Source: Magnetospirillum sp.
Lineage (GTDB): Bacteria > Pseudomonadota > Alphaproteobacteria > Rhodospirillales > Magnetospirillaceae
Assembly (NCBI GenBank): GCA_020217035.1
Contig: JAIWOG010000048.1
Coordinates: 1-10,000, forward strand
Length of the DNA: 10,000 bases
Direction: 5' to 3'
Below the pieces are notes generated by a model, which worked only from the letters and a program-made list of their open reading frames with translations, did no database searches and was not told the origin of the DNA. The first letter of the stretch is position 1. Every line of letters starts with the position of its first letter. Positions 43-10,000 of this stretch are shown here, piece by piece. Position numbers and translations under genes: made by a program.

Positions 43-71
43 TTAACGCCAGCGCCTGTCGCGTCTACAAT
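43..71 (+). promoter_or_regulatory. Candidate sigma70-type promoter for psd-pssA
   Basis: A TTAACG box (43-48, 4 of 6 matches to TTGACA) and a TACAAT box (66-71, 5 of 6 matches to TATAAT) are separated by exactly 17 bases. Transcription would start near 77-79. The -10 box overlaps the ATG at 70, so an mRNA made from this promoter could not use that ATG, which favours the in-frame ATG at 121. This was found by eye; no transcript data are available. Confidence 0.5.
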
Positions 72-120
72 GCGCCGCCATCTTCTGACGAGGTTGATCT
101 TGCACGCGCCCAATTTGTCC

Positions 121-807
121 ATGTCCAGCTACATCATGGTTCCCATCCACCGCGAGGGCTGGCCGTTCATCGCGCTCTTCGCCCTTGGCGCCCTGTTGCT
201 GGGGTGGCTGTGGACACCGTTGGGATGGCTGGGGCTGGCCGCCACCTTGTGGTGCGCCTATTTCTTCCGCAATCCCGACCGCGTCACCCCCACCCGCGAC
301 GGCTTGGTGATCAGCCCCGCCGACGGCGTCGTCTGCCTGATGGGCGACGCGGTGCCGCCGGCCGAATTGGGCCTGGGAGACGCCCCCCGCCCGCGTGTCT
401 GCGTGTTCATGAGCGTGTTCGACGTCCACGTCAACCGGGTCCCGCTCAGCGGCCGGGTGACCAAGCTGGCCTACCATGCCGGCAAGTTCGTCAACGCCGC
501 CCTGGACAAGGCCAGCGAGGAAAACGAACGCATGGCGGTCGCCCTGGAACTGGAGGATGGCCGCCAGGTGGCCTTCGTGCAGATCGCCGGCCTGGTGGCA
601 CGGCGAATCAAATGCGATTTGGTGGAAGGACAAGCCGTCCGTGCCGGCGAACGTTTCGGTCTGATCCGCTTCGGCTCGCGCGTTGACGTCTACCTGCCGG
701 AAGGGGTGCAGCCCAAGGTCGCCCTGGGGCAGCGTTGCATCGCCGGCGAAACCGTGCTGGCCGATATGCTGTCGGACGAGCCGGTGCGGTTGGGCGAGGT
801 GCGCTGA
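121..807 (+). CDS. psd: Phosphatidylserine decarboxylase proenzyme
   Basis: This enzyme decarboxylates phosphatidylserine to phosphatidylethanolamine at the inner membrane. The 228-residue product opens with a hydrophobic region (about residues 11-47) and continues with the motif FFRNPDR. D68 in SPADG and H103 in FDVHVNR match the family's catalytic Asp and His. The autocleavage site is G185-S186 in RFGSRVD, where the serine becomes the pyruvoyl group of the small alpha chain. The length and the FGS form fit the short alphaproteobacterial type. The frame is open from an ATG at 70, but a likely -10 box covers that codon, so I chose the ATG at 121. An ATG at 136 is also possible, and none of these has a clear Shine-Dalgarno sequence. 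pssA, which makes the substrate, begins one base after the stop. Function is near certain; the start is not. Confidence 0.93.
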
Positions 808-808
808 G

Positions 809-1651
809 ATGTTCCGCCAGCGCCCCCCAGGTCAAGGCCGGCGTCGCCTGATCCGGCCGCCGAAATTGCCGGGGCTGTCCATCAACACGCTGATCCCCAA
901 CATCCTGACGGTGCTGGCCCTGTGCGCCGGCCTGACTTCGATCCGCTTCGCCCTGCACGGCAAGTGGGAACACGCGGTGGTGTCCATCGTCCTGGCCGCC
1001 ATCCTGGACGGGCTGGACGGACGGGTGGCGCGGCTGCTTCAGGGCACGTCGAAATTCGGCGCCGAGCTGGATTCGCTGTCGGATTTCGTCAGCTTCGGCG
1101 TGGCGCCGGCCATGATGCTGTATTTCTGGACCATGCAAGGCGCCGGCGGTTTCGGTTGGGCGCTGGTGTTGCTGTTCACCGTCTGCTGCGCCCTGCGTCT
1201 GGCCCGCTTCAACACCATGCTGGGCAACGCCGACCTGCCGCCCTATGCCTATAATTTCTTCACCGGCATTCCCGCCCCGGCGGCGGCCGGGATCGTGCTG
1301 CTGCCCATGGTCGCCAGCTTCGAATTCGGCGAGGCGTTCTTCGCCCGCCCGGCGGTGGTGTCGGTGTTCCTGCTGGGGGTGGCGTTCCTGATGGTCAGCA
1401 CCATCCCCACCTTTTCCTTCAAGAAGGTGCGCATCCCCAACGCCTGGGTGCTGCCGGTCCTGTTGGTCGTCGGCTTGTTGGCGGCCTTCCTGGTCACCGA
1501 GCCCTGGTTGACCCTGGTGGTGTTGGGTTTCGTCTATTTGGGGATGATTCCCTTCAGCATCCGCGCGTTCCGCCGGTTGAAGCGCCAGGCCGAGTCGGTG
1601 ACCACCGCCCCCGTCGATGGACACAGTGACGAAAATGCCACGCTTCCGTGA
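809..1651 (+). CDS. pssA: CDP-diacylglycerol--serine O-phosphatidyltransferase
   Basis: PssA is an integral inner-membrane enzyme that joins CDP-diacylglycerol and L-serine to give phosphatidylserine and CMP, the substrate of the Psd encoded just upstream. The 280-residue protein has the complete CDP-alcohol phosphotransferase signature DG-x2-AR-x8-G-x3-D-x3-D: D70-G71, A74-R75, G84, D88 and D92. Several hydrophobic segments follow up to about residue 255. The multi-spanning form matches type II PssA, not the peripheral E. coli enzyme. The reading frame is open further upstream inside psd, but the ATG at 809 lies one base after the psd stop and has GAGG at 796-799, nine bases ahead. It is therefore very likely co-transcribed and translationally coupled with psd. 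I see no hairpin terminator after it. Confidence 0.94.
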   Translation: MFRQRPPGQGRRRLIRPPKLPGLSINTLIPNILTVLALCAGLTSIRFALHGKWEHAVVSIVLAAILDGLDGRVARLLQGTSKFGAELDSLSDFVSFGVAPAMMLYFWTMQGAGGFGWALVLLFTVCCALRLARFNTMLGNADLPPYAYNFFTGIPAPAAAGIVLLPMVASFEFGEAFFARPAVVSVFLLGVAFLMVSTIPTFSFKKVRIPNAWVLPVLLVVGLLAAFLVTEPWLTLVVLGFVYLGMIPFSIRAFRRLKRQAESVTTAPVDGHSDENATLP

Positions 1652-1740
1652 AACATTGCGTTGCCTCTAATGCGCCCCCTTGCTCCCAATGATCGTCTGC
1701 GGTAGAAGTCGCCTTAATCATTTTCACACGCGTCACACCA

Positions 1741-1746
1741 AAAGGA
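1741..1746 (+). promoter_or_regulatory. Ribosome binding site of the OmpA-family gene
   Basis: AAAGGA lies ten bases before the ATG at 1757. It supports that start over the ATG at 1766, which would place the ribosome too far downstream. The spacing is slightly long. Confidence 0.5.
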
Positions 1747-1756
1747 ATCCAATTCC

Positions 1757-2719
1757 ATGCGCGCCATGAAGTCTCTGCTGGTCGCCGGCGTCCTCGCCGC
1801 CCTGCCCGTCGCCGCCAACGCCCAGTGGTACGTGGGTCTGGATGGTGGCGCCAATTACATGCAAGACCCCGGCTCGGCCCAAGGCGCCGATTCCGATTGG
1901 GGTTGGGTCGGCCTGGGTCAGGTCGGTTACAGCTTCGGTGCCCCCAAGGTTGAGTTCGAAGTCGGCTATCGCGCCAACGACTCGATCGACTCGGTCAGCA
2001 CCATGATCAACGGCATCTACGACTTCATGCCGACCAGCAAGTGGCATCCCTTCGTCGGCGCCGGTATCGGCTGGGCTTGGCTGGACGGCGACTTCGCCGG
2101 CGTCGGCGCCCGCAATTCCGACAATGCCTTCGCCTATCAGGGCATCGCCGGTGTCGGCTACGACATCGACAGCAACTGGGCTCTGAAGGCTCAGTATCGC
2201 TACTTCGCCACCCTGGACGCCGATGTCGGCACCCGCACCTCGGGTGACGCCGATTATCGCAACCACTCGATCCTGGCGGGCTTCACCTACAAGTTCGGCG
2301 CTCCCGCTCCGGTGGCGGCCCCGACCCCGGTGGCCAAGCCCGCTCCGGCTCCGGCTCCGGCTCCGGTGGCCAAGCCGGCCCCGGCCCCGTTGAAGAACTT
2401 CATCGTGTTCTTCGACTTCAACAAGGCCGACATCACCCCGGAAGCCGCCAAGATCATCACCCAGGCCGTCGACACCGCCAAGAAGGGTGGCTCCACCCGC
2501 GTCGACCTGACCGGCCACGCCGACCGTTCGGGCCCGGACAAGTACAACATGGCTCTGTCGCTGAAGCGCGCCAACGCCGTCAAGGCCGCCATGGTCAAGC
2601 AGGGCATCCCCGCCGACCAGATCTCGGTGGTCGGCAAGGGCGAGACCGCTCCGCTGGTCCAGACCCCCGATGGTGTCCGCGAGCCGCAGAACCGTCGCGT
2701 CGAGATCGTCCTGCCCTAA
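1757..2719 (+). CDS. OmpA-family outer-membrane protein
   Basis: This is a structural outer-membrane protein that likely ties the outer membrane to peptidoglycan. Residues 1-22 form a signal peptide ending ANA before Gln23. Residues 23 to about 181 look like an eight-stranded barrel: alternating aromatic/polar strands, Gly-rich turns and a final strand ending in YKF. A Pro/Ala/Val/Lys linker covers residues 182-211. The C-terminal OmpA domain (about 213-320) contains FFDFNKADIT and GHADRSG...LSLKRANAV. D256 and R271 are 15 residues apart, as are the diaminopimelate-binding Asp and Arg of E. coli OmpA. The gene follows pssA after 105 bases in which only weak promoter-like boxes are visible, and ends 16 bases before a strong terminator. 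I give no symbol because OmpA paralogues are common in this group. Confidence 0.93.
   Translation: MRAMKSLLVAGVLAALPVAANAQWYVGLDGGANYMQDPGSAQGADSDWGWVGLGQVGYSFGAPKVEFEVGYRANDSIDSVSTMINGIYDFMPTSKWHPFVGAGIGWAWLDGDFAGVGARNSDNAFAYQGIAGVGYDIDSNWALKAQYRYFATLDADVGTRTSGDADYRNHSILAGFTYKFGAPAPVAAPTPVAKPAPAPAPAPVAKPAPAPLKNFIVFFDFNKADITPEAAKIITQAVDTAKKGGSTRVDLTGHADRSGPDKYNMALSLKRANAVKAAMVKQGIPADQISVVGKGETAPLVQTPDGVREPQNRRVEIVLP
2300..2389 (+). repeat. Pro/Ala-rich linker repeat inside the OmpA-family gene
   Basis: Tandem GCTCCG hexamers encode Ala-Pro dipeptides. A 14-base unit, CCGGTGGCCAAGCC, occurs at 2327-2340 and again at 2363-2376. The 36-base period corresponds to a 12-residue PVAKPAPAP unit. Such low-complexity DNA can gain or lose units, which would change the distance between barrel and peptidoglycan-binding domain. 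Confidence 0.8.
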
Positions 2720-2735
2720 TCGGAGCAGACGACGG

Positions 2736-2771
2736 AAAACCCCCGGTCGCAAGGCCGGGGGTTTTTCTTTT
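2736..2771 (+). terminator. Rho-independent terminator after the OmpA-family gene
   Basis: A stem of CCCCCGG (2740-2746) pairs with CCGGGGG (2755-2761) around an eight-base loop. The A run at 2736-2739 extends the pairing into the T run. The T-rich tract at 2762-2771 is interrupted by one C, a classic intrinsic terminator on the + strand. Read on the - strand, the same hairpin is followed by only four U residues. It may therefore also act, more weakly, on the convergent SGNH hydrolase gene that stops 10 bases away. Confidence 0.9.
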
Positions 2772-2780
2772 GTCTGGCGC

Positions 2781-3374
2781 TTATCGGAACCAGTCCTGCC
2801 AGGCGTTCCATTGGCACACCATGTCCGCCAGGATGCTGTAACCGTTGCTGCCTGGATGTGCGCCGTCGCCGGACAGGGCCTCGGCCATCCAGGTCTGGTT
2901 CTGGCGCAAGGCGGCGAAAACGGGAAGATAAGCGATGCCGCGGCGTTTGGCGCCATGCGCCATCATCGCGCACATGTCGGCCAGCACGGGATCGGTTGAC
3001 GGCGTGTCGGCGATGGGGGCGGGGCCGATCAGCAGAACTGGGGCCATGCCCTGGGCCTGGTCCAATGTCGCCTCGGTGTGCGAGCGGGTCAGATCCAGGG
3101 TGATCCCCTGCGCGGCGTCGTTGGCGCCAAAGGAAAACACCAAGCCGCGACGGTCTCTGGGTTGCATCGACAGGCGGGGCAGGGCCTCGGCATGCCATCG
3201 GGCGGCGATGTCGCCGCTGGTTTGGCCGCGAACTCCTAGATTATAGGCGGTCAGGTCACGATTTTGGGCGATGGCCTGTTGGCAAACCCGGCCAACCCAT
3301 CCCAGCAAGGCGGGATCACCGCATCCTTGCACGAAGGAATCGCCGATGAAGCATAAATGGCTTGGTGCCGCCAA
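2781..3374 (-). CDS. SGNH/GDSL-family hydrolase, probable TTG start
   Basis: This is a small esterase- or lipase-like hydrolase of unknown substrate. All four SGNH blocks are present in the 197-residue product: FIGDSF with nucleophile S13; N45-L-G47; GAND with N85; and DGAHPG with D170 and H173 as the rest of the triad. No signal peptide is visible, so it is probably cytoplasmic. The frame is open far upstream, but that part runs through the next gene in another frame and lacks family character. No ATG or GTG lies between the upstream stop and the GDS motif. TTG at 3374-3372 has AAGG five bases ahead and gives a normal family N-terminus. It begins seven bases after the upstream stop, suggesting coupling. 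The family is firm; the substrate and exact start are not. Confidence 0.85.
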   Translation of the reverse strand: MAAPSHLCFIGDSFVQGCGDPALLGWVGRVCQQAIAQNRDLTAYNLGVRGQTSGDIAARWHAEALPRLSMQPRDRRGLVFSFGANDAAQGITLDLTRSHTEATLDQAQGMAPVLLIGPAPIADTPSTDPVLADMCAMMAHGAKRRGIAYLPVFAALRQNQTWMAEALSGDGAHPGSNGYSILADMVCQWNAWQDWFR

Positions 3375-3379
3375 GCCGG

Positions 3380-3383
3380 CCTT
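3380..3383 (-). promoter_or_regulatory. Ribosome binding site supporting the TTG start of the SGNH hydrolase
   Basis: On the - strand, AAGG at 3383-3380 lies five bases before TTG 3374-3372. It overlaps the stop codon (TAA, 3384-3382) of the upstream exported-protein gene. This arrangement fits translational re-initiation after that stop. Confidence 0.45.
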
Positions 3384-3972
3384 ATCCCTTGATCTCGTCG
3401 CGACGAGCGGTCTTGGGCTTTTCCGATGTCGCCTTCTCGACCTTGGGTTTGGCCTTGGGCTTGTTGGCGGCGGCGGCCGAAGCCTGCTTGACCGGGGCTT
3501 GCGGCGCGGCGGCGCAATTGGCGGTGGCGGGGATCGGCTTTTCGATCGAGGTGGCGGCCCAGGTTTCCATTTCGTTGGGCGACAAGGCCAGAACGGTGTC
3601 GAACAACTTGGCCTGGGTTCCGCAATAATCCTCGACATGCTGGGCTCGCATCGAGGCATCGTTGGACAATTGCGTCACATAGCGGTCCATGCCGCTCTGG
3701 CCCTTGCCCAGCCGGGCGAACATGCCGCGCAGATGGTTGGCGTTGGTGTTCATGGTGCTGCCGAAACGGCCGACCCAGTTGGACCACTTGTCGCGGAAAT
3801 CCACCTCTCCGCCTTGGCATTTCAGGGCGGCGACCATCAACTCGTAATGCAACTGGCGGACCTGCATGGCCCGGATGTCCTGGGGGCTGTAACACTGTGG
3901 GCGGGCGAAGGCCGGGCTGGCGATGGCAGCGCAAAGAATTGCTGCGACGACGCACTGGGTCTTTCGATTCAC
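3382..3972 (-). CDS. Exported protein of unknown function, Lys/Ala/Pro-rich tail
   Basis: I do not recognise this family. From a GTG start the product is 196 residues. It begins with a signal peptide (residues 1-23: NRK, a hydrophobic stretch, then SPAFA), so it is likely periplasmic. The mature part (about 24-153) looks mainly helical and has four cysteines, C27, C52, C117 and C153, which could form two disulfides. Residues 154-196 are a low-complexity Ala/Pro/Lys tail, probably disordered and basic. The frame is open 64 codons further upstream into the glycosyltransferase gene. The GTG at 3972-3970 is preferred because it has GAGG five bases ahead and immediately yields the signal peptide. 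It lies between the glycosyltransferase and SGNH hydrolase genes on the same strand, which hints at an envelope role without proving it. Confidence 0.8.
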   Translation of the reverse strand: MNRKTQCVVAAILCAAIASPAFARPQCYSPQDIRAMQVRQLHYELMVAALKCQGGEVDFRDKWSNWVGRFGSTMNTNANHLRGMFARLGKGQSGMDRYVTQLSNDASMRAQHVEDYCGTQAKLFDTVLALSPNEMETWAATSIEKPIPATANCAAAPQAPVKQASAAAANKPKAKPKVEKATSEKPKTARRDEIKG

Positions 3973-4078
3973 TCGGGCCTCGCGGGGTCGTGTCGGAATT
4001 GCGGCGACAGTGTGGCCGAGCGTCGTGCAAAAGGCAACATTTCCGACCGGGATTTTCGCCCGGAATCTCAGTTTTCCG

Positions 4079-5080
4079 CTATGTGCGCAGGGGGCGCAGA
4101 AGCGACAGGAACTGTTCGGCCACTTTGTCCCAGGAAAAACCCAAGGCGTAGGCGCGACAAACATCGGGATCGATGTCCAAGGCGGCCAGGGCGGCGCGAC
4201 GCAGGTCGGGATTCAGGATGCCTGCCGAGGACTGGCCCAGGACGTCTTGCGGTCCGGGAACCGGGAAGGCGGCGACGGGGACGCCGCTCGCCAGGGCTTC
4301 CAGCATGACCAAGCCGAACGTGTCGGTCAGCGACGGGAAGACGAAGCAGTCGCCGGCGGAGAAGTAGCGGGACAATTCCTGGTCGCCATTGGCGATGCGC
4401 CAGTGGGTGTCGGGGAAGCGTTTCATCAGCGCGGCGCGGGCCGGGCCGTCGCCCACCACCATCTTCGAGCCGGGCAAATCCAATTCCAGGAAGGCGGCAA
4501 GGTTCTTTTCCACCGCCACGCGTCCCACATACATGAACAGTGGCCGGGGCACGTCGACGAAATCCTTGCCCTGGGGGCGGAAGGTGTCGCAATCGACGCC
4601 ATGACACCATTCCACGGCGTTGGCGAACCCCCATTCTCCCAATTCGCGGTGGACCGACGGCGACGGGCACATGACCGCGGCCGACGGGGCATGGAAGCGT
4701 CGCATCAGCGCATAGGGCCAGGACAGCGGCACACCGGTGCGGGCTCGGACGTAATGGGGGAACTTGGTGTGGTAGGCGGTGGTGAAAGCCAGGTTCTGGT
4801 TCAGGCACCAGTTTCGGGCGGCCCAACCCAACGGGCCTTCGGTGGGAAGGTGGATGGCGTCGGGATCGAAATCCCGCAGGGCCTGCCCCACCTTGGCGCC
4901 GGGCCACAGCGCCAGTCGGATTTCCGGGTAGGACGGGCAGGGAAAGGTGGCGAAATGTCCCGGCTCGATCACCAGGACCTGATGGCCCATCCGCCGCAAC
5001 GTGTCGGCCAGGGTCGACAATACCCTGACCACCCCGTTGCGTTGGGGATGCCAGGCGTCGGTGACGATGGCGATGCGCAT
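4079..5080 (-). CDS. GT4-type glycosyltransferase, GT-B fold
   Basis: This enzyme probably transfers a sugar from a nucleotide donor to a lipid or glycan acceptor at the cytoplasmic face of the membrane. The 333-residue product has the N-terminal acceptor half (MRIAIVTDAWHPQRNGV, Gly-rich loop around N15-G16). The donor-binding half includes YVGRVAVEKN (R187, K192) and the E-x7-E-like motif D253-TFGLVML-E261, followed by EALASGVPV. It resembles the family that includes mannosyl- and diacylglycerol-glycosyltransferases such as MgtA, but the sugar and acceptor cannot be read from sequence. A GTG lies immediately upstream at 5083; ATG 5080 is chosen because AAGGAG ends five bases before it. It lies 74 bases after murI on the same strand, probably in the same transcript. 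Confidence 0.88.
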   Translation of the reverse strand: MRIAIVTDAWHPQRNGVVRVLSTLADTLRRMGHQVLVIEPGHFATFPCPSYPEIRLALWPGAKVGQALRDFDPDAIHLPTEGPLGWAARNWCLNQNLAFTTAYHTKFPHYVRARTGVPLSWPYALMRRFHAPSAAVMCPSPSVHRELGEWGFANAVEWCHGVDCDTFRPQGKDFVDVPRPLFMYVGRVAVEKNLAAFLELDLPGSKMVVGDGPARAALMKRFPDTHWRIANGDQELSRYFSAGDCFVFPSLTDTFGLVMLEALASGVPVAAFPVPGPQDVLGQSSAGILNPDLRRAALAALDIDPDVCRAYALGFSWDKVAEQFLSLLRPLRT

Positions 5081-5085
5081 CACTT

Positions 5086-5091
5086 CTCCTT
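5086..5091 (-). promoter_or_regulatory. Ribosome binding site of the glycosyltransferase gene
   Basis: AAGGAG on the - strand (5091-5086) is a near-perfect Shine-Dalgarno sequence. It is five bases from ATG 5080 but only two from GTG 5083, so it selects the ATG. Confidence 0.75.
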
Positions 5092-5154
5092 GCGACGGTT
5101 CTGCGCAGCCTTAAGGCCGTCCTTCATGTCGGGCAAGTGACGAAGCGATGAATA

Positions 5155-6033
5155 TTACAGGTCGATCAGTTCGACGGCGGGGGCGGCACCCAGGGCCGGG
5201 AAGAATTGTCCGGCGCTGGCGGAAAAGCGTTGTGGCGCGTCCGTGGTGAAAAGCGTGATGCCGCCTTGGCCGGACCGGGCCAGCATGCCACGGGCTTGCA
5301 GCATGGCGGCGGCCTTGTCGGCCACCGCCTGGGCGCAGTCCACCAGGACCGGGCCTTCCCCCAGGACCTTGCGCAGGGTGGGGGCCAGCAGCGGGAAATG
5401 GGTACACCCCAGAACCAGGCAATCGGCGGCTTCGGGGCCGCTGAAGCTGTCGGCGAGGTATTGGCGGATCATCGCTTCGGCGATGGGGCCGTCCACCAAT
5501 CCTTCCTCGACCAGGGCGACGAACAGCGGGCAGGGCACCGGGGTGACCCGGCAATCGGGACGTCGGTCCAAGATGGCGTGGTCGAAGGCCCCGGATCGGC
5601 AGGTTCCTTCGGTGGCGGCGACGACGATGCGGCCGCCCGGCGACAGCCGGACCGCCTGTTCGGCTCCGGAATCGATGACGCCCAGGACCATCATGTCGGG
5701 ATAAAGCTGTGCCAAGGTGGTGGCGGCATGGGCGGAAGCGGTATTGCAGGCCAGCACCATCATCTTGATATCATGTTGGCTAAAGAAATCAGCGGCCCTC
5801 AGCACGTATTGGATGATGGTTTGCGGCGCCTTGGTGCCATAGGGCAGGCGGGCGGCGTCACCCAGGTAAAGCAGGTTTTCCGCCGGTAAAGCGTGTCGCA
5901 ACGCAGCCGCGACGGTCAGCCCGCCGACACCGGAATCAAAGACCCCGATGGGGCGACGGCTTGGCTCGTCTGGTAAGGTATTCGCCGTATTCGAAGCGCG
6001 ATTATCCACAGTCTGTACCCGGTTAACTGTCAC
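5155..6033 (-). CDS. murI: Glutamate racemase
   Basis: MurI interconverts L- and D-glutamate in the cytoplasm and supplies D-Glu for peptidoglycan. The 292-residue product has GVFDSGVGGLTV (D33-S34), LPYGTK (residues 64-69), the first catalytic cysteine in ACNTAS (C96) and the second in GCTHFP (C210, followed by T211-H212). Family members are usually near 260-280 residues; the extra length is an N-terminal extension of about 25 polar residues before the conserved core. The only upstream in-frame candidate is GTG 6033. A GTG at 6009 would shorten the extension, and neither has a good Shine-Dalgarno sequence, so the start is uncertain. It heads a - strand run with the glycosyltransferase, exported protein and SGNH hydrolase. 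A strong promoter candidate sits about 50 bases upstream. Confidence 0.95.
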   Translation of the reverse strand: MTVNRVQTVDNRASNTANTLPDEPSRRPIGVFDSGVGGLTVAAALRHALPAENLLYLGDAARLPYGTKAPQTIIQYVLRAADFFSQHDIKMMVLACNTASAHAATTLAQLYPDMMVLGVIDSGAEQAVRLSPGGRIVVAATEGTCRSGAFDHAILDRRPDCRVTPVPCPLFVALVEEGLVDGPIAEAMIRQYLADSFSGPEAADCLVLGCTHFPLLAPTLRKVLGEGPVLVDCAQAVADKAAAMLQARGMLARSGQGGITLFTTDAPQRFSASAGQFFPALGAAPAVELIDL

Positions 6034-6079
6034 TCATGCGTTCAATTGCATGGTTTTGAAGGATTATTTGAGGGCGTTG

Positions 6080-6109
6080 ATTATCCGGCCCTTGGCGGGT
6101 CAATGTAAA
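6080..6109 (-). promoter_or_regulatory. Candidate sigma70-type promoter for murI
   Basis: Read on the - strand, TTTACA (6109-6104, 5 of 6 matches to TTGACA) and GATAAT (6085-6080, 5 of 6 matches to TATAAT) are separated by 18 bases. The predicted start near 6073 gives a leader of about 40 bases to GTG 6033. It overlaps the divergent promoter at 6092-6120. Confidence 0.6.
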
Positions 6110-6120
6110 TAGCCTATAAA
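6092..6120 (+). promoter_or_regulatory. Candidate sigma70-type promoter for the sensor/MFS operon
   Basis: TTGGCG (6092-6097, 4 of 6 matches to TTGACA) and TATAAA (6115-6120, 5 of 6 matches to TATAAT) are separated by 17 bases. Transcription would start near 6127, leaving a leader of about 130 bases before ATG 6257. I see no recognised riboswitch or clear terminator-like hairpin in that leader. Confidence 0.5.
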
Positions 6121-6245
6121 TCTAAAACACGCATGGCTGCCACCGGTTGTGCGTAAGGCAGTGCGGGCGGGAGATTAACGGGTGCCGGTCGGGGACGGGT
6201 TCTGCATCAATGTCGCCGTTTCGGTTTCCGGCAGCGGTTGGGGGC

Positions 6246-6250
6246 GGAGG
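6246..6250 (+). promoter_or_regulatory. Ribosome binding site of the sensor gene
   Basis: GGAGG six bases before ATG 6257 is an optimal Shine-Dalgarno sequence and fixes this start. Confidence 0.8.
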
Positions 6251-6256
6251 TAATCC

Positions 6257-7060
6257 ATGTCGTGGTCGCTTTCGCGCAAGGTTTCCGTCGCTCTGATCGC
6301 CATATTGGCGAGCACCATGCTGCTGACCGCGTTGTTCGGTTATTACAAGTTCGAGGACGAAGTGTCCTCGCTGGTCCGCTCGCGCTACAGCTTCGTCGCC
6401 TTCACCATCAAGAAGCGGGTCGAGGACAGCCTGAACCTGGGCTTCGCCTTGCGCCAACTGCGCCAGGTCCAAGACGCCATCGAGCTTGAGAAAACCCGCG
6501 ACGAACAGATCGTCGGCATCGAGATTTATGATTCGCGCGGCGAGATCCTGTTCAACAGCGACCGCGGGCGCATCGGCGCCTCGGTTCCCGACGAATGGCT
6601 GTTACCCCTGGCCGAGCCTTCCGGCCAGCCTTTCGCCCTGATGGACGAGGATTCGCACGCCGTCGGCCTGCCTTTGGTCAACAATCTGGGCAAGGTGGAG
6701 GGAGCGGTGGTGTTGGTTTACCCCGCCGGCTATGTCGAGCGCGAGCTGGGGGGCGCGTTGTGGGGGCTGGCGACGCGGATGGCCGGGATCGTCGCCGTCT
6801 TCGCCGTGTTGACTTTCGTGGTCGCGGGTGTCGCCTTGGGGCCGGTGCGTCGTCGCCTCGCCGCCATGGAGACCGCCCTGGCGACGGCCGTCACCAACCA
6901 TGCCGCCGGCGCCGCTCCGGATGGCGCCGCGCCGCCGTCTTCGGATGTGGCGGCCGAGTTCGACGGTCATTTCGGCGAATTCGTCGCCAAGGCGCACGAG
7001 GCGCTTGAACATATCAAGCTCTCGACCGACGAGGTCGAGCGGCTTGATCGATTGGCATGA
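6257..7060 (+). CDS. Two-TM membrane sensor protein without a recognised output domain
   Basis: The 267-residue product has a first membrane helix at about residues 8-28, an extracytoplasmic domain of about 135 residues, a second helix at about 169-193, and a 75-residue cytoplasmic tail. The extracytoplasmic part has a Cache/PAS-like pattern, with IVGIEIYDSRGEILF followed later by a LPLVNNLGKVEGAVVLV strand pair. The tail starts with a HAMP-like GPVRRRLAAMETAL, then an Ala/Pro-rich stretch, and ends in an acidic helix. No kinase, GGDEF, methyl-accepting or other output domain is present. The start has an excellent GGAGG. The stop overlaps the next gene's first possible ATG in ATGA. It resembles the N-terminal half of the next protein and may work with it. 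Family assignment is by pattern only; the ligand is unknown. Confidence 0.85.
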   Translation: MSWSLSRKVSVALIAILASTMLLTALFGYYKFEDEVSSLVRSRYSFVAFTIKKRVEDSLNLGFALRQLRQVQDAIELEKTRDEQIVGIEIYDSRGEILFNSDRGRIGASVPDEWLLPLAEPSGQPFALMDEDSHAVGLPLVNNLGKVEGAVVLVYPAGYVERELGGALWGLATRMAGIVAVFAVLTFVVAGVALGPVRRRLAAMETALATAVTNHAAGAAPDGAAPPSSDVAAEFDGHFGEFVAKAHEALEHIKLSTDEVERLDRLA

Positions 7061-7063
7061 GGG
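7059..7063 (+). promoter_or_regulatory. Ribosome binding site of the sensor-HAMP-MFS gene
   Basis: GAGGG lies five bases before ATG 7069 and favours it over the ATG at 7057, which has no purine-rich sequence ahead. The 7057 start would instead rely on the ATGA overlap with the upstream stop. Confidence 0.5.
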
Positions 7064-7068
7064 CGACC

Positions 7069-9168
7069 ATGCGGCTGGATAGCTCCCGCTCATTGCTGGT
7101 AAGGCTGTTGATGCTGGCGGTGCTGGTGTTGGTGCCACCCATGGGATTCGCCTCGTTCATGGCGTTGGACCGCTTCGAACAGGGGATGAACCCGGAATTG
7201 GACCGCAAGGCCGCCGCCGTCGGCCGTGATCTGGTGGTCCAGGTGGAGCGGGCGGTGGCTTACGGCATACCGCTGGACAAGCTGGTGGGGGTGGACGAGT
7301 TCTTCGCCCAGGTGCTGAGCGGCAACCCGGAAATCCGCTATCTGGGCATCACCGGCACTGACGGCGGCATCTTGTTCCTGCGCGGTGCCCTTAGCGGCCA
7401 ACTGGCCGACCATTATCGCCAGCAAATGGCCGTCCCCGCCAATGTGGAGGGCAAGACCACGCGCATCGGCGACTTCGTCGATCTGGCCCTGCCGCTGAAG
7501 GGGCGCTCTGGCTTGGTCGGTTCGGTGCATGTGGGCTTCGACCAGGGCTACATCTCGTCGCGCCTGTTCAGCATTTTCTACGACATCGCGGTGGTTCTGG
7601 GGGCGTCGCTGATCGTCGCCTTCGAAATCCTGCTGTTCGTGGTGGTGTTCAACGTCTCCGGCCCCATGAAACTGGTGGCGGAGGTCATCGACCAGGGCCG
7701 CAAGGGCGACTTCACCCGGCTGCCCGGTATCCGCGCCGACGACGAAGTGGGGCATTTCGCCCGCGTGTTCAACGCCACCATGCGGCAAGTGGACAATGCC
7801 TATCGCGGCTTGATGGCCTATATCGACGAGGTGCGAACCGGCCATTTCGACCGCAGCGTCGCCGAGAAGGCCGGTGAAATCGCCGACCGGGTCAAGTTCC
7901 TGTTCCGCTTCGATCCTTCGGGGACGCCGCGTTTCCTGCGCGAGAAGCTGTCGTCGGACGTTCGCTTGCCGCTGTTCCTGTTCGTCTTCGCCGAGGAAAT
8001 CAGCCGTTCCTTCATGCCGCTTTACGCGCAATCCCTGCCCCAGCGGCTGGCGTGGTTGACGCCCGAGGTGATGATCGCCCTGCCCATCGCGGTGTTCATG
8101 ACCGGCATCGCCCTGGGCTCGTTGTGGGGCGGCGCCGTGACCGAACGCTTGGGCAGCCGCCGCGTGTTCCAGATCGGGTTGCTGCCGGCTGTCCTGGGCT
8201 GCTTGATGAGTGGCCTGTCGCAAAGCGTCATCGAACTGAGCTTGTGGCGCGGCATCACCGGCCTGGGCTACGCCTTGGTGACCGTTGCCTGCCAGGGCTA
8301 TATCTCGAAAACCTCGAGCGACAGCAGACACGTCACCGGTCTGGGCAGCTATGTGGGGGCGGTGCTGTCCGCCGCCCTGTGCGGCACTGTCCTGGGCGGC
8401 GTCATGGCCGACCGCATCGGCTTCGCCCCCACCTTCTTCGTCTCGGCCGGATTGGTGGTGGTGTCGGGCATCTTGTTGGGCTATCTGCTTGAAAAAGCCG
8501 CCTCGGCCCCCGACGCGGCGGCTGCCGAAAGCGTCGCTCCCCGCGGCTTGTCGCGTATCTTCCTGAATTGGCGTTTCACCGTGCTGGTGGTGTTCGCCGC
8601 CATTCCGGCCAAGATCGCCCTGACGGGCTTCTTCTTCTTCCTGGTGCCGCTGGTTTTGTGGGATTCCGGGCACCAATTGCCGGAAATCGCCCGCATCATG
8701 GTGCTGTATCCCTTGGTCATGCTGGTGGTGTCCTATTTCGCCACCCGCTTCGCCGACCAATGGGGGTGGCGGGTCGGTCAGATCGCCGTGGGCGGGGTGT
8801 TGGGCGGTGTCGGCATCTTGCTGGCCGCCTTGTTCGACGGCACCTTGCCGCTGGCCGCCGGGGTCATGCTGCTGGGGGCCGCCCATGGCATGTCGGCGGC
8901 GCCGCAACTGGCGCTGGTCCCCGACATCTGCTGGGTCGAATGCCATCATTTCGGCCGCACCCAGGTCCTGGCGCTGTTGCGCACCCTGGAGCGTGTCGGC
9001 TCGGTGATCGGGCCGGTGCTGGCCGCCGTCTTCTGGCCGATGTGGGGGACCGAAGGGGCCATCGTCGCCATCGGCTCGGCGGTGTTGGGAATGGCGGCGG
9101 TGTTCGCCTTGTTGGCCGGCCGCTATGGCGACGGCCCGCACCTTGAGAGCGAGGAGGACGCGGCATGA
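7069..9168 (+). CDS. Sensor-HAMP-MFS fusion transporter
   Basis: This is a 699-residue membrane protein joining signal-transduction and transport modules. A helix at about 9-31 is followed by an extracytoplasmic Cache-like domain (about 33-168), a second helix (about 173-197) and a HAMP domain (about 196-250, with P199 and DEVGHFARVFN around D225-E226). A helical linker leads to a complete MFS domain (about 299-690) with about twelve hydrophobic segments. The first MFS loop has a motif A-like sequence (G350 to R365, with E359-R360 and G362); a second copy, GGVMADRIG, follows the seventh or so hydrophobic segment. It may transport a small solute with activity gated by the sensor, or act as a receptor in the manner of UhpC. 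Its stop overlaps the next start in ATGA. An alternative start at 7057 adds four residues. The domain calls are firm; substrate and ligand are unknown. Confidence 0.88.
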   Translation: MRLDSSRSLLVRLLMLAVLVLVPPMGFASFMALDRFEQGMNPELDRKAAAVGRDLVVQVERAVAYGIPLDKLVGVDEFFAQVLSGNPEIRYLGITGTDGGILFLRGALSGQLADHYRQQMAVPANVEGKTTRIGDFVDLALPLKGRSGLVGSVHVGFDQGYISSRLFSIFYDIAVVLGASLIVAFEILLFVVVFNVSGPMKLVAEVIDQGRKGDFTRLPGIRADDEVGHFARVFNATMRQVDNAYRGLMAYIDEVRTGHFDRSVAEKAGEIADRVKFLFRFDPSGTPRFLREKLSSDVRLPLFLFVFAEEISRSFMPLYAQSLPQRLAWLTPEVMIALPIAVFMTGIALGSLWGGAVTERLGSRRVFQIGLLPAVLGCLMSGLSQSVIELSLWRGITGLGYALVTVACQGYISKTSSDSRHVTGLGSYVGAVLSAALCGTVLGGVMADRIGFAPTFFVSAGLVVVSGILLGYLLEKAASAPDAAAAESVAPRGLSRIFLNWRFTVLVVFAAIPAKIALTGFFFFLVPLVLWDSGHQLPEIARIMVLYPLVMLVVSYFATRFADQWGWRVGQIAVGGVLGGVGILLAALFDGTLPLAAGVMLLGAAHGMSAAPQLALVPDICWVECHHFGRTQVLALLRTLERVGSVIGPVLAAVFWPMWGTEGAIVAIGSAVLGMAAVFALLAGRYGDGPHLESEEDAA
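9151..9157 (+). promoter_or_regulatory. Ribosome binding site of the substrate-binding protein gene
   Basis: GAGGAGG lies seven bases before ATG 9165, inside the end of the MFS-fusion gene, and fixes the start of the next gene. Confidence 0.7.
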
Positions 9169-10000
9169 AGCGTCGTCTGGTCCTGGGGCTGGTTTCCGCC
9201 CTCAGCTTGTGGGCTTTGCCTGTGTTGGCCGCCGATTCGGCGCCGGCCAAGCCTTACCGCATCTACATGGCCCTGTGGCGGGGATGGGAAGACGCCGCCC
9301 AGGGCTTCAAGGACTACTTCACCAACCAGAATATCCCGGTCGAGTTGATCATCCGCGACGCCGGCCAAGATCGCGCCAAGCTGCCGGAATTCGTCGCCGA
9401 GGCCAAGCAACTGGGCGTCGATCTGGTGTTCACCTGGGGCACCACGGTGACGGTGGAAATGCTGGGGACCTACGACAAGGTCGACCCGGCCAAGCATATC
9501 ACCGACATCCCCGCTGTCTTCGCCATCGTGTCGCAGCCGGAAGGCGCCAAGGTGGTGCCCGATCTGTCGTCATCGCGCCGCAACATCGCCGGCACCAGCT
9601 ACCTGGTGCCCATGGAAACCCAGCTCAACCTGCTGCAATCCTACCGGCCGGTCCGGCGTCTGGGCATGGTCTACAACCCGCTGGAAAAGAACTCGCTGGT
9701 GGCCGCCGACGAATTGCGGGCGCTGGGGCGTCGTGACGGCTTCGAGTTGGTGGTTGCTCCGGTGGACGTGGTCGATGGCAAGCCGGCGGTGGATAGCATC
9801 GCCCCCAAGGTGGCGGGCTTGAAGCAAGCCGGTGTGGACTTCCTGTACATTCCCCCCGACACCTTCCTGAACGTCAACCGCGACATCCTGACCGGCGCCG
9901 CGCTGACTGAAAAGATCCCCAGCTTCGCCGCCGCCGAGAACCCCGTCTTGTTCTCCAAGGCCATGTTCGGCGGTGTCTACCGTTATTACACGGTGGGCCA
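9165..10000 (+). CDS. ABC_sub_bind (PF04392-type) substrate-binding protein, 3' end missing
   Basis: The first 278 residues of an exported binding protein are visible; the gene is open at the window edge. A signal peptide (KRR, hydrophobic core, cleavage after VLA at about residue 22) has no lipobox cysteine, so the product is probably free in the periplasm. The body matches the PF04392 family of two-lobed periplasmic binding proteins: DLVFTWGTTVTVEML, IPAVFAIVSQPEGAK, NIAGTSYLVP and LGMVYNPLEKNS, with the second lobe starting near VDFLYIPPD. The start has GAGGAGG seven bases ahead, and the ATG overlaps the upstream stop in ATGA. No ABC permease or ATPase gene is visible. It may deliver a ligand to the adjacent sensor proteins instead of, or as well as, an ABC importer. 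The ligand is unknown. Confidence 0.88.
   Translation, partial: MKRRLVLGLVSALSLWALPVLAADSAPAKPYRIYMALWRGWEDAAQGFKDYFTNQNIPVELIIRDAGQDRAKLPEFVAEAKQLGVDLVFTWGTTVTVEMLGTYDKVDPAKHITDIPAVFAIVSQPEGAKVVPDLSSSRRNIAGTSYLVPMETQLNLLQSYRPVRRLGMVYNPLEKNSLVAADELRALGRRDGFELVVAPVDVVDGKPAVDSIAPKVAGLKQAGVDFLYIPPDTFLNVNRDILTGAALTEKIPSFAAAENPVLFSKAMFGGVYRYYTVG

Follow-up and report, generated by a model that had tools for sequence, protein, structure and literature searches.

In the window analysed here, a stretch of 10,000 nucleotides from Magnetospirillum sp., a relative of magnetic bacteria, a single open frame joins a periplasmic sensor and a HAMP domain to a full-length MFS transporter domain. The locus raises the question of whether this fusion is genuine and, if so, what a carrier could be doing behind a sensor. 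An earlier note had described the fusion and had proposed that HAMP-linked signals either gate transport or make the transporter a signalling receptor. The fusion gene (g2) lies between two genes on the same strand (g1 and g3), and the features of the three are as follows.

6257..7060, forward: g1, TM / Cache-like / TM, a second sensor of 267 aa whose cytoplasmic tail aligns with the HAMP region of g2
7057..7060, forward: ATGA overlap of the g1 stop and the upstream g2 start, read from the sequence; if g2 starts at 7069, 8 bases lie between the genes
7069..9168, forward: g2, the fusion protein, 699 aa (703 aa if the start is 7057)
7084..7260, forward: TM helix 1 and periplasmic extension of g2, residues 6-64 (model)
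7261..7542, forward: Cache-like periplasmic sensor domain of g2, residues 65-158 (model; sCache_3_2 matched by 35 of the 69 rows of alignment A1 at E<=0.01)
7543..7662, forward: TM helix 2 of g2, residues 159-198 (model; HAMP boundary set by hand at P199)
7663..7839, forward: HAMP domain of g2, residues 199-257 (model and alignment; conserved P199, G213, D225-E226 and G228)
7840..7950, forward: HAMP-MFS linker of g2, residues 258-294 (model: a single helix at 262-278 with breaks on either side)
7951..9117, forward: MFS domain of g2, residues 295-683 (Pfam and model; R394, R638, E641 and R642 invariant in A1)
9165..9998, forward: g3, periplasmic binding protein of PF04392 (E 1.8e-16), N-terminal 278 aa; runs off the window

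Sensor, HAMP and MFS domains form one conserved protein

The g2 frame runs uninterrupted through TM / Cache-like / TM / HAMP / MFS, and its start candidate at 7069 is preceded by GAGGG, which resembles a ribosome-binding sequence. Pfam MFS_1 matches residues 303-619 (E 7.6e-29; 101.1 bits against a cut-off of 33.4). On g2 itself sCache_3_2 is sub-threshold (13.1 bits against 28.4) and Pfam HAMP gives no match; in alignment A1, which holds the window's g2 and 68 of 120 listed homologues, 16 of the 69 rows match HAMP at E<=0.01, and the relative P0105 exceeds the curated HAMP cut-off (26.1 against 25). The AlphaFold2 model of g2 (mean pLDDT 85.7) has a helix at 6-64, an alpha/beta sensor up to 158, a helix at 159-211 that comprises TM2 and the first HAMP helix, a second HAMP helix at 226-257, and from 295 an MFS fold in which we count 12 TM helices, with the final pair merged into one DSSP segment (630-683). 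Model and alignment thus agree on two helices and a connector behind a TM helix, with the conserved P and DExG of a HAMP domain (P199 in 65/69 rows, G213 in 65/69, E226 in 63/69 and G228 in 67/69). The secondary structure of an alpha/beta domain between two TM helices, as in a Cache sensor, is seen both in this model and in that of a naturally fused g1-g2 protein (mean pLDDT 75, used for topology only). With the whole g2 model as query, Foldseek and VIA-align list MFS chains.

Relatives carry the same fusion. In all, 126 homologues were found at E<=0.001, and 116 of the 120 listed are at least 646 aa long. At the same threshold, a search of 41 genomes close to the window matches g2 in 28. Every one of the 13 from the genus is among them; 12 of these have the gene in a single frame, and in the remaining one (G011) the last ~40 residues are in another frame. 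The family profile, at E<=1e-40, picks out 30 genomes in a draw of 289 from the class and 12 in a draw of 398 from the phylum; the two draws overlap. No family match in either draw contains an internal stop, and among the 41 genomes near the window one weak MFS match does (G026:C89, E 7.5e-4). When compared with three relatives, g2 has dN/dS values of 0.10-0.20 for the complete gene, 0.01-0.24 for single domains and 0.11-0.15 for the linker, so that every domain tested, linker included, is well under 1.

The earlier note had named two findings that would undo the fusion, and neither turned up. A sequencing error joining two frames between about 7840 and 7980 was rejected on the single-frame relatives and the low dN/dS, and homologues are not consistently split at the HAMP-MFS junction, since all 54 near rows of A1, the window's included, have exactly 70 residues between HAMP G228 and MFS R299. 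Two counter-cases were seen: P0104, a 433-aa metagenome protein that may be either truncated or truly split, begins inside the HAMP-MFS linker, and L116 contains a stand-alone MFS relative. The fusion of sensor, HAMP and MFS in one continuous frame is confirmed by the open frame, Pfam, the model and the relatives.

g2 belongs to a three-gene unit

The gene upstream encodes a second sensor. Although dCache_1 is sub-threshold in the window's g1, 23 of 38 rows match it at E<=0.05 in alignment A3 (the window's g1 and 37 of 120 listed homologues; 132 were found). Profile comparison shows g1 to be homologous to the sensor-HAMP part of g2 (hhalign of A3 against A1, probability 94.7 over 229 columns), and g1 and g2 may therefore form a heterodimer. 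Downstream, the g3 start overlaps the g2 stop in an ATGA at 9165-9168, and the contig of the window's genome ends inside g3. The N-terminus of g3 looks to us like a signal peptide. The partial protein scores 57.4 bits against the TrpX cut-off of 390, and we rejected g3 as the tryptophan-specific TrpX.

A profile survey of long loci gave 57 units from Alphaproteobacteria, to judge by how the nearest relatives are named, and from other classes of the phylum, in genomes that were chosen by their MFS and of which many are close kin; 16 units are from the window's own family (L002-L004, L025-L037), and L044, whose MFS is cut by the contig, was excluded. In 56 of the 57 units g3 is in the locus, and in the 57th (L054) the contig ends. 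In 50 units it follows g2 directly and in the same orientation (g3 match start <=2.5 kb from MFS match start); in seven it is elsewhere or beyond the contig end. Two sensors are present in 56 units, 41 with a separate g1 (L037, where the g1 match is in two overlapping frames, was counted as present) and 15 with g1 fused to g2; the exception, L115, shows one sensor, and five of the fused units match the second sensor only weakly (E 3e-3 to 5e-6). Natural g1-g2 fusions are also represented by 22 proteins of the P0120 type, P0120 included.

As a control, we counted both protein families in 13 unit-bearing genomes. Above the cut-off, MFS_1 is matched at least 490 times there and PF04392 19 times. 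Of these 19, 13 adjoin an MFS of the g2 family and six do not. The sole PF04392 match in the window's genome, which is 94% complete, is g3, and in G241 the g3 gene was missed by the Pfam model and found by the family profile. Seven of the eight operon genes of L002 (Magnetospirillum sp. 64-120) were scanned with Pfam, the eighth being the MFS gene, and no ABC permease or ATPase was found among them. The g3 protein is apparently dedicated to the g1-g2 unit.

In L116 (5593-7964) a 415-aa MFS relative without Cache or HAMP is divergent from an adjoining PF04392 gene and retains the charged residues R638-E641-R642 (R-E-R); genes for a response regulator-SpoIIE protein and an MCP follow. A screen of 289 genomes, 19 of which matched at E<=1e-15 (with up to 6 candidates scored per genome), gave a stand-alone MFS relative beside PF04392 in G203 only. 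The rest of the window (70-6033) matches NCBIfam models for phosphatidylserine decarboxylase, phosphatidylserine synthase, an OmpA-like protein, a glycosyltransferase and glutamate racemase; the ORF at 2781-3659 (reverse strand) has no NCBIfam match.

The sensor-MFS fusion is constant and the HAMP domain is optional

The earlier note asked whether the HAMP heptads run continuously into the first MFS helix. In the AlphaFold2 model two breaks, at 258-261 and 279-294, separate the HAMP helix from MFS helix 1, and the model does not support a coiled coil continuous with that helix. The spacing that is fixed in the near rows also changes with distance, with 57-73 residues between G228 and R299 in 10 distant rows of A1, 37-40 in three, and 4 in two rows that have no HAMP. 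Measured from where the last sensor match begins up to the MFS match, the distance is 256-311 aa in 39 of the 41 units with a separate g1 (L094 and L095 were left out of this figure). Ten fused units gave 173-249 aa, five of the 15 having been omitted with a second sensor over E 1e-6, and this shorter distance suggests that many fused units do not have a full HAMP. Among 20 P0120-type proteins (alignment A4, 20 of 22), none matches Pfam HAMP at E<=0.05.

Since the spacing varies and HAMP is missing or shortened in part of the family, the constant element is the fusion of sensor and MFS, and HAMP is optional. Given the broken helix and the distant spacings, HAMP gating cannot be the general mechanism. 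The earlier proposal is right about the fusion and its domains, and as an interpretation is partly supported and too narrow. With the partner genes in view, the question shifts from crosstalk between HAMP and MFS to what the MFS, its binding protein and the two sensors do jointly.

Carrier residues are largely retained beside g3, and R-E-R is lost in two clear paralogues of one genus

Six residues of the MFS domain (R394, G400, P513, R638, E641 and R642) are present in all 69 rows of A1. Among fused relatives, L104, L107, L108 and L111 have R-E-R, and L100 and L103 have R-D-K. The helix-1 residues E309-E310-R313 are not retained in L100, L103, L104, L108, L111 and L116. The sequences of known structure closest to the g2 MFS are VMAT, NorA and EmrB, which are exporters or antiporters, and export or exchange therefore fits better than import fed by a binding protein. 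Fold matches are mixed and not decisive (VMAT2, SotB, Spns2, SLC37A4, MCT1 and the galactonate symporter). In helix 5 the family consensus is CGPAIGG, presumably akin to antiporter motif C, and the window's protein reads CGTVLGG.

Six loci (L085, L087, L088, L092, L094 and L107) contain an intact g1-g2-g3 unit together with a second sensor pair, g1'-g2'. This second pair adjoins a class III cyclase gene in L087 and L088 and SpoIIE in L085, L092, L094 and L107. In all six, g3 follows the intact MFS, and in L085 it is also directly before g1'. The TM region of g2' is recognisable as MFS by hhalign in L087 and L088 (probability 96-97) and weakly in L085 (65) and L094 (43), with reversed sequences giving at most 1.9; for L107 and L092 the probability is ~0.1, which gives no support for homology to the MFS. 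In the two clear MFS homologues, L087 and L088, which are from one genus, R638-E641-R642 is lost. The same residues read as lost in L085 and L094, where the alignments are weak, and in L107, whose alignment is unproven, they read R-G-R; the comparison covers these five loci. R394 is retained in the degenerate copies of L085, L087, L088 and L094. We read these loci as possibly holding a transport arm with a binding protein and a signalling arm without one, the clear cases, L087 and L088, being of one genus. Where its TM region is degenerate or can no longer be recognised, a g1'-g2' pair may represent a former carrier that now serves as a receptor. In the window's genus, the loci surveyed (L042 excepted) show the transport arm only, adjoining a phosphatase with its own Cache-HAMP input.

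Signalling genes and other neighbours of the unit

A SpoIIE phosphatase gene is found in 31 of the 57 loci, and several of the other 26 are on short contigs. After g3, the operon of L002 goes on to encode a formyltransferase-like protein, then a Cache-HAMP-SpoIIE-HATPase protein of 971 aa, and next a STAS protein. A partner-switching set is complete here, as g5 and g6 match SpoIIE, HATPase_c_2 and STAS in Pfam. The formyltransferase-like gene (PF00551; L002:11113-12015) has a four-base overlap with g3, and such a gene is also near the unit in L082 and L085. The STAS gene is followed by a gene for a 77-aa protein without a Pfam match (L002:15339-15572) and one for an MCP-signal-domain protein (L002:15562-16461), and relatives of one or both of these occur in several loci. 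In L042, the second locus of G004, two Cache-type proteins without a TM carrier region are encoded between g3 and the SpoIIE gene (3862-7521).

In the stretches fetched, seven of the 57 units have type VI secretion genes within ~25 kb or around them (L089, L090/L117, L097, L098, L100/L118, L108 and L109); Pfam checks were made on L098 and L108. In L108 and L109 the sensor-MFS-binding-protein unit sits between ClpV-like and FHA-like genes. VipA is present in 9 of 30 class genomes with the unit versus 42 of 259 without it, and none was found in the window's genome. With linkage in only seven units, a general link to type VI secretion was rejected; the window's genome shows no VipA, so that association with type VI secretion is one use made of the unit and does not define it. 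A defence system was also rejected, as PADLOC gave no match for the four proteins submitted.

Relation to known systems

Fusions of carriers with signalling modules have been described before. CbrA (SSS-STAC-PAS-histidine kinase) transports histidine and signals, and like g2 both CbrA and MxtR/CrbS join a secondary carrier domain to signalling modules, according to excerpts of PMC7918813. In those proteins the carrier is N-terminal, of the SSS family, and on the same chain as the kinase, whereas g2 has an N-terminal Cache-HAMP sensor, a C-terminal MFS carrier and no fused enzyme. The ammonium sensor kinase Ks-Amt5 also has a transporter fold within a signalling protein but, in the text available, the fold is Amt, HAMP is absent and the kinase is fused (PMC5764959). 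The partner-switching genes of the L002 operon resemble the RsbU/SpoIIE-HATPase-STAS arrangement, to which the operon adds the sensor-MFS-binding-protein unit. In glucose-6-phosphate sensing by UhpC/UhpB an MFS protein likewise works with a membrane sensor; UhpC is a separate MFS receptor beside the kinase, without Cache, HAMP or binding protein.

For the binding protein the nearest precedent is TAXI-GltS of Bordetella pertussis, where, as with g2-g3, a binding protein is genetically coupled to a secondary carrier outside TRAP/TTT and where the type occurs in other bacteria with binding protein and carrier fused (PMC12344293, in part). GltS is thought to be an elevator carrier; the carrier here is an MFS and the binding protein is PF04392. 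Before this 2025 paper, as its excerpts put it, TRAP and TT(T) were the only secondary transporters known with a soluble binding protein, and an elevator mechanism is suggested there as a possible requirement that further classes would test (PMC12344293). In the part of the 2016 Cache survey available as text (PMC4822843), the words transporter, MFS, major facilitator and permease do not occur. Among the matches listed from PMC full text, outside which most subscription journals lie, no paper describes a Cache-HAMP-MFS protein or a PF04392-MFS pair. Carrier-receptor fusions are already known, and the matches listed held no description of a sensor-MFS-binding-protein unit.

A model for the unit and its alternatives

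We tentatively prefer, with somewhat less than even confidence, to see the unit as an MFS transporter that is under sensor control, has a binding protein of its own and is coupled to signalling by partner switching. In this model g2 would be the transporter subunit of a three-part membrane unit, in which the homologous Cache sensors of g1 and g2 are most likely paired in the membrane and the MFS carrier is on g2. The g3 protein would most likely capture a solute and dock from the periplasm onto the complex of g1, g2 and the MFS. The occupancy of the Cache domains and the state of the carrier could influence each other through TM2, plus HAMP where it is present, and in genomes with the genes this state might be read by the SpoIIE-type phosphatase together with its anti-sigma kinase and STAS partners. 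In favour of the model are the linkage of g1, g2 and g3 with its PF04392 control, the natural g1-g2 fusions, the conserved charged residues of the carrier, the contrast with the paralogues, the PF04392 neighbour of L116 and the ATGA overlap of g2 and g3, all of it genomic evidence. Against this model stand the exporters and antiporters among the closest known structures, the restriction of SpoIIE to 31 loci, the paralogue contrast that comes mainly from L087 and L088, the R394 kept in degenerate copies, the R-D-K of L100 and L103, the helix-1 residues lost in fused relatives, the single sensor of L115, the seven units in which g3 is not directly downstream, and the close kinship of many surveyed genomes.

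The SpoIIE genes would also suit a receptor whose MFS has ceased to move solute and, in the manner of transporter-like receptors, signals the binding of a ligand to the phosphatase. The cyclase genes directly beside the degenerate-MFS paralogues of L087 and L088 point the same way, as do the SpoIIE genes beside pairs with weakly or not recognisable TM regions in L085, L092, L094 and L107, and CbrA and Ks-Amt5 are precedents for transporter-derived receptors (excerpts of PMC7918813 and PMC5764959). However, the copies beside g3 keep R-E-R, or R-D-K in L100 and L103, when the clear cyclase-side paralogues have lost it, and 26 loci, some on short contigs, show no SpoIIE; we consider a pure receptor rather unlikely. 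The kinship to VMAT, NorA and EmrB and the helix-5 consensus, with its resemblance to what we take to be motif C despite the CGTVLGG of the window, would favour a sensor-gated efflux pump, in which the ligand of g3 is handed to the Cache domains alone and the sensors gate the export of a different compound through the MFS. Such a pump would also suit the Cache domains, which are ligand sensors. The pairing of PF04392 with a Cache-less MFS in L116 argues against it, though the two genes are divergent there and a HAMP-MCP receptor gene is nearby, and we hold this pump to be unlikely. That sensor and carrier share a chain for expression or localisation only, uncoupled in function, would be consistent with the broken HAMP-to-MFS helix and with a spacing of 4 to 73 residues over A1, but the fixed 70 residues of the near rows, the purifying selection on the linker and the two sensors of nearly every unit (56/57, weak in five) make it improbable, the least likely of these readings.

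A possible combined transport and sensing machine

To our knowledge no binding-protein-dependent MFS is known. It is doubtful, though conceivable, that binding-protein dependence extends beyond elevator carriers, here to an MFS. If true, such dependence would not be limited to elevator carriers, and an MFS served by a dedicated binding protein would test the suggested elevator requirement (PMC12344293, in part). In some genomes, comparison of an intact sensor-MFS protein that has a binding protein with a degenerate copy beside a signalling enzyme could show how a carrier changes into a receptor. Together, the unit suggests a machine that combines transport and sensing.
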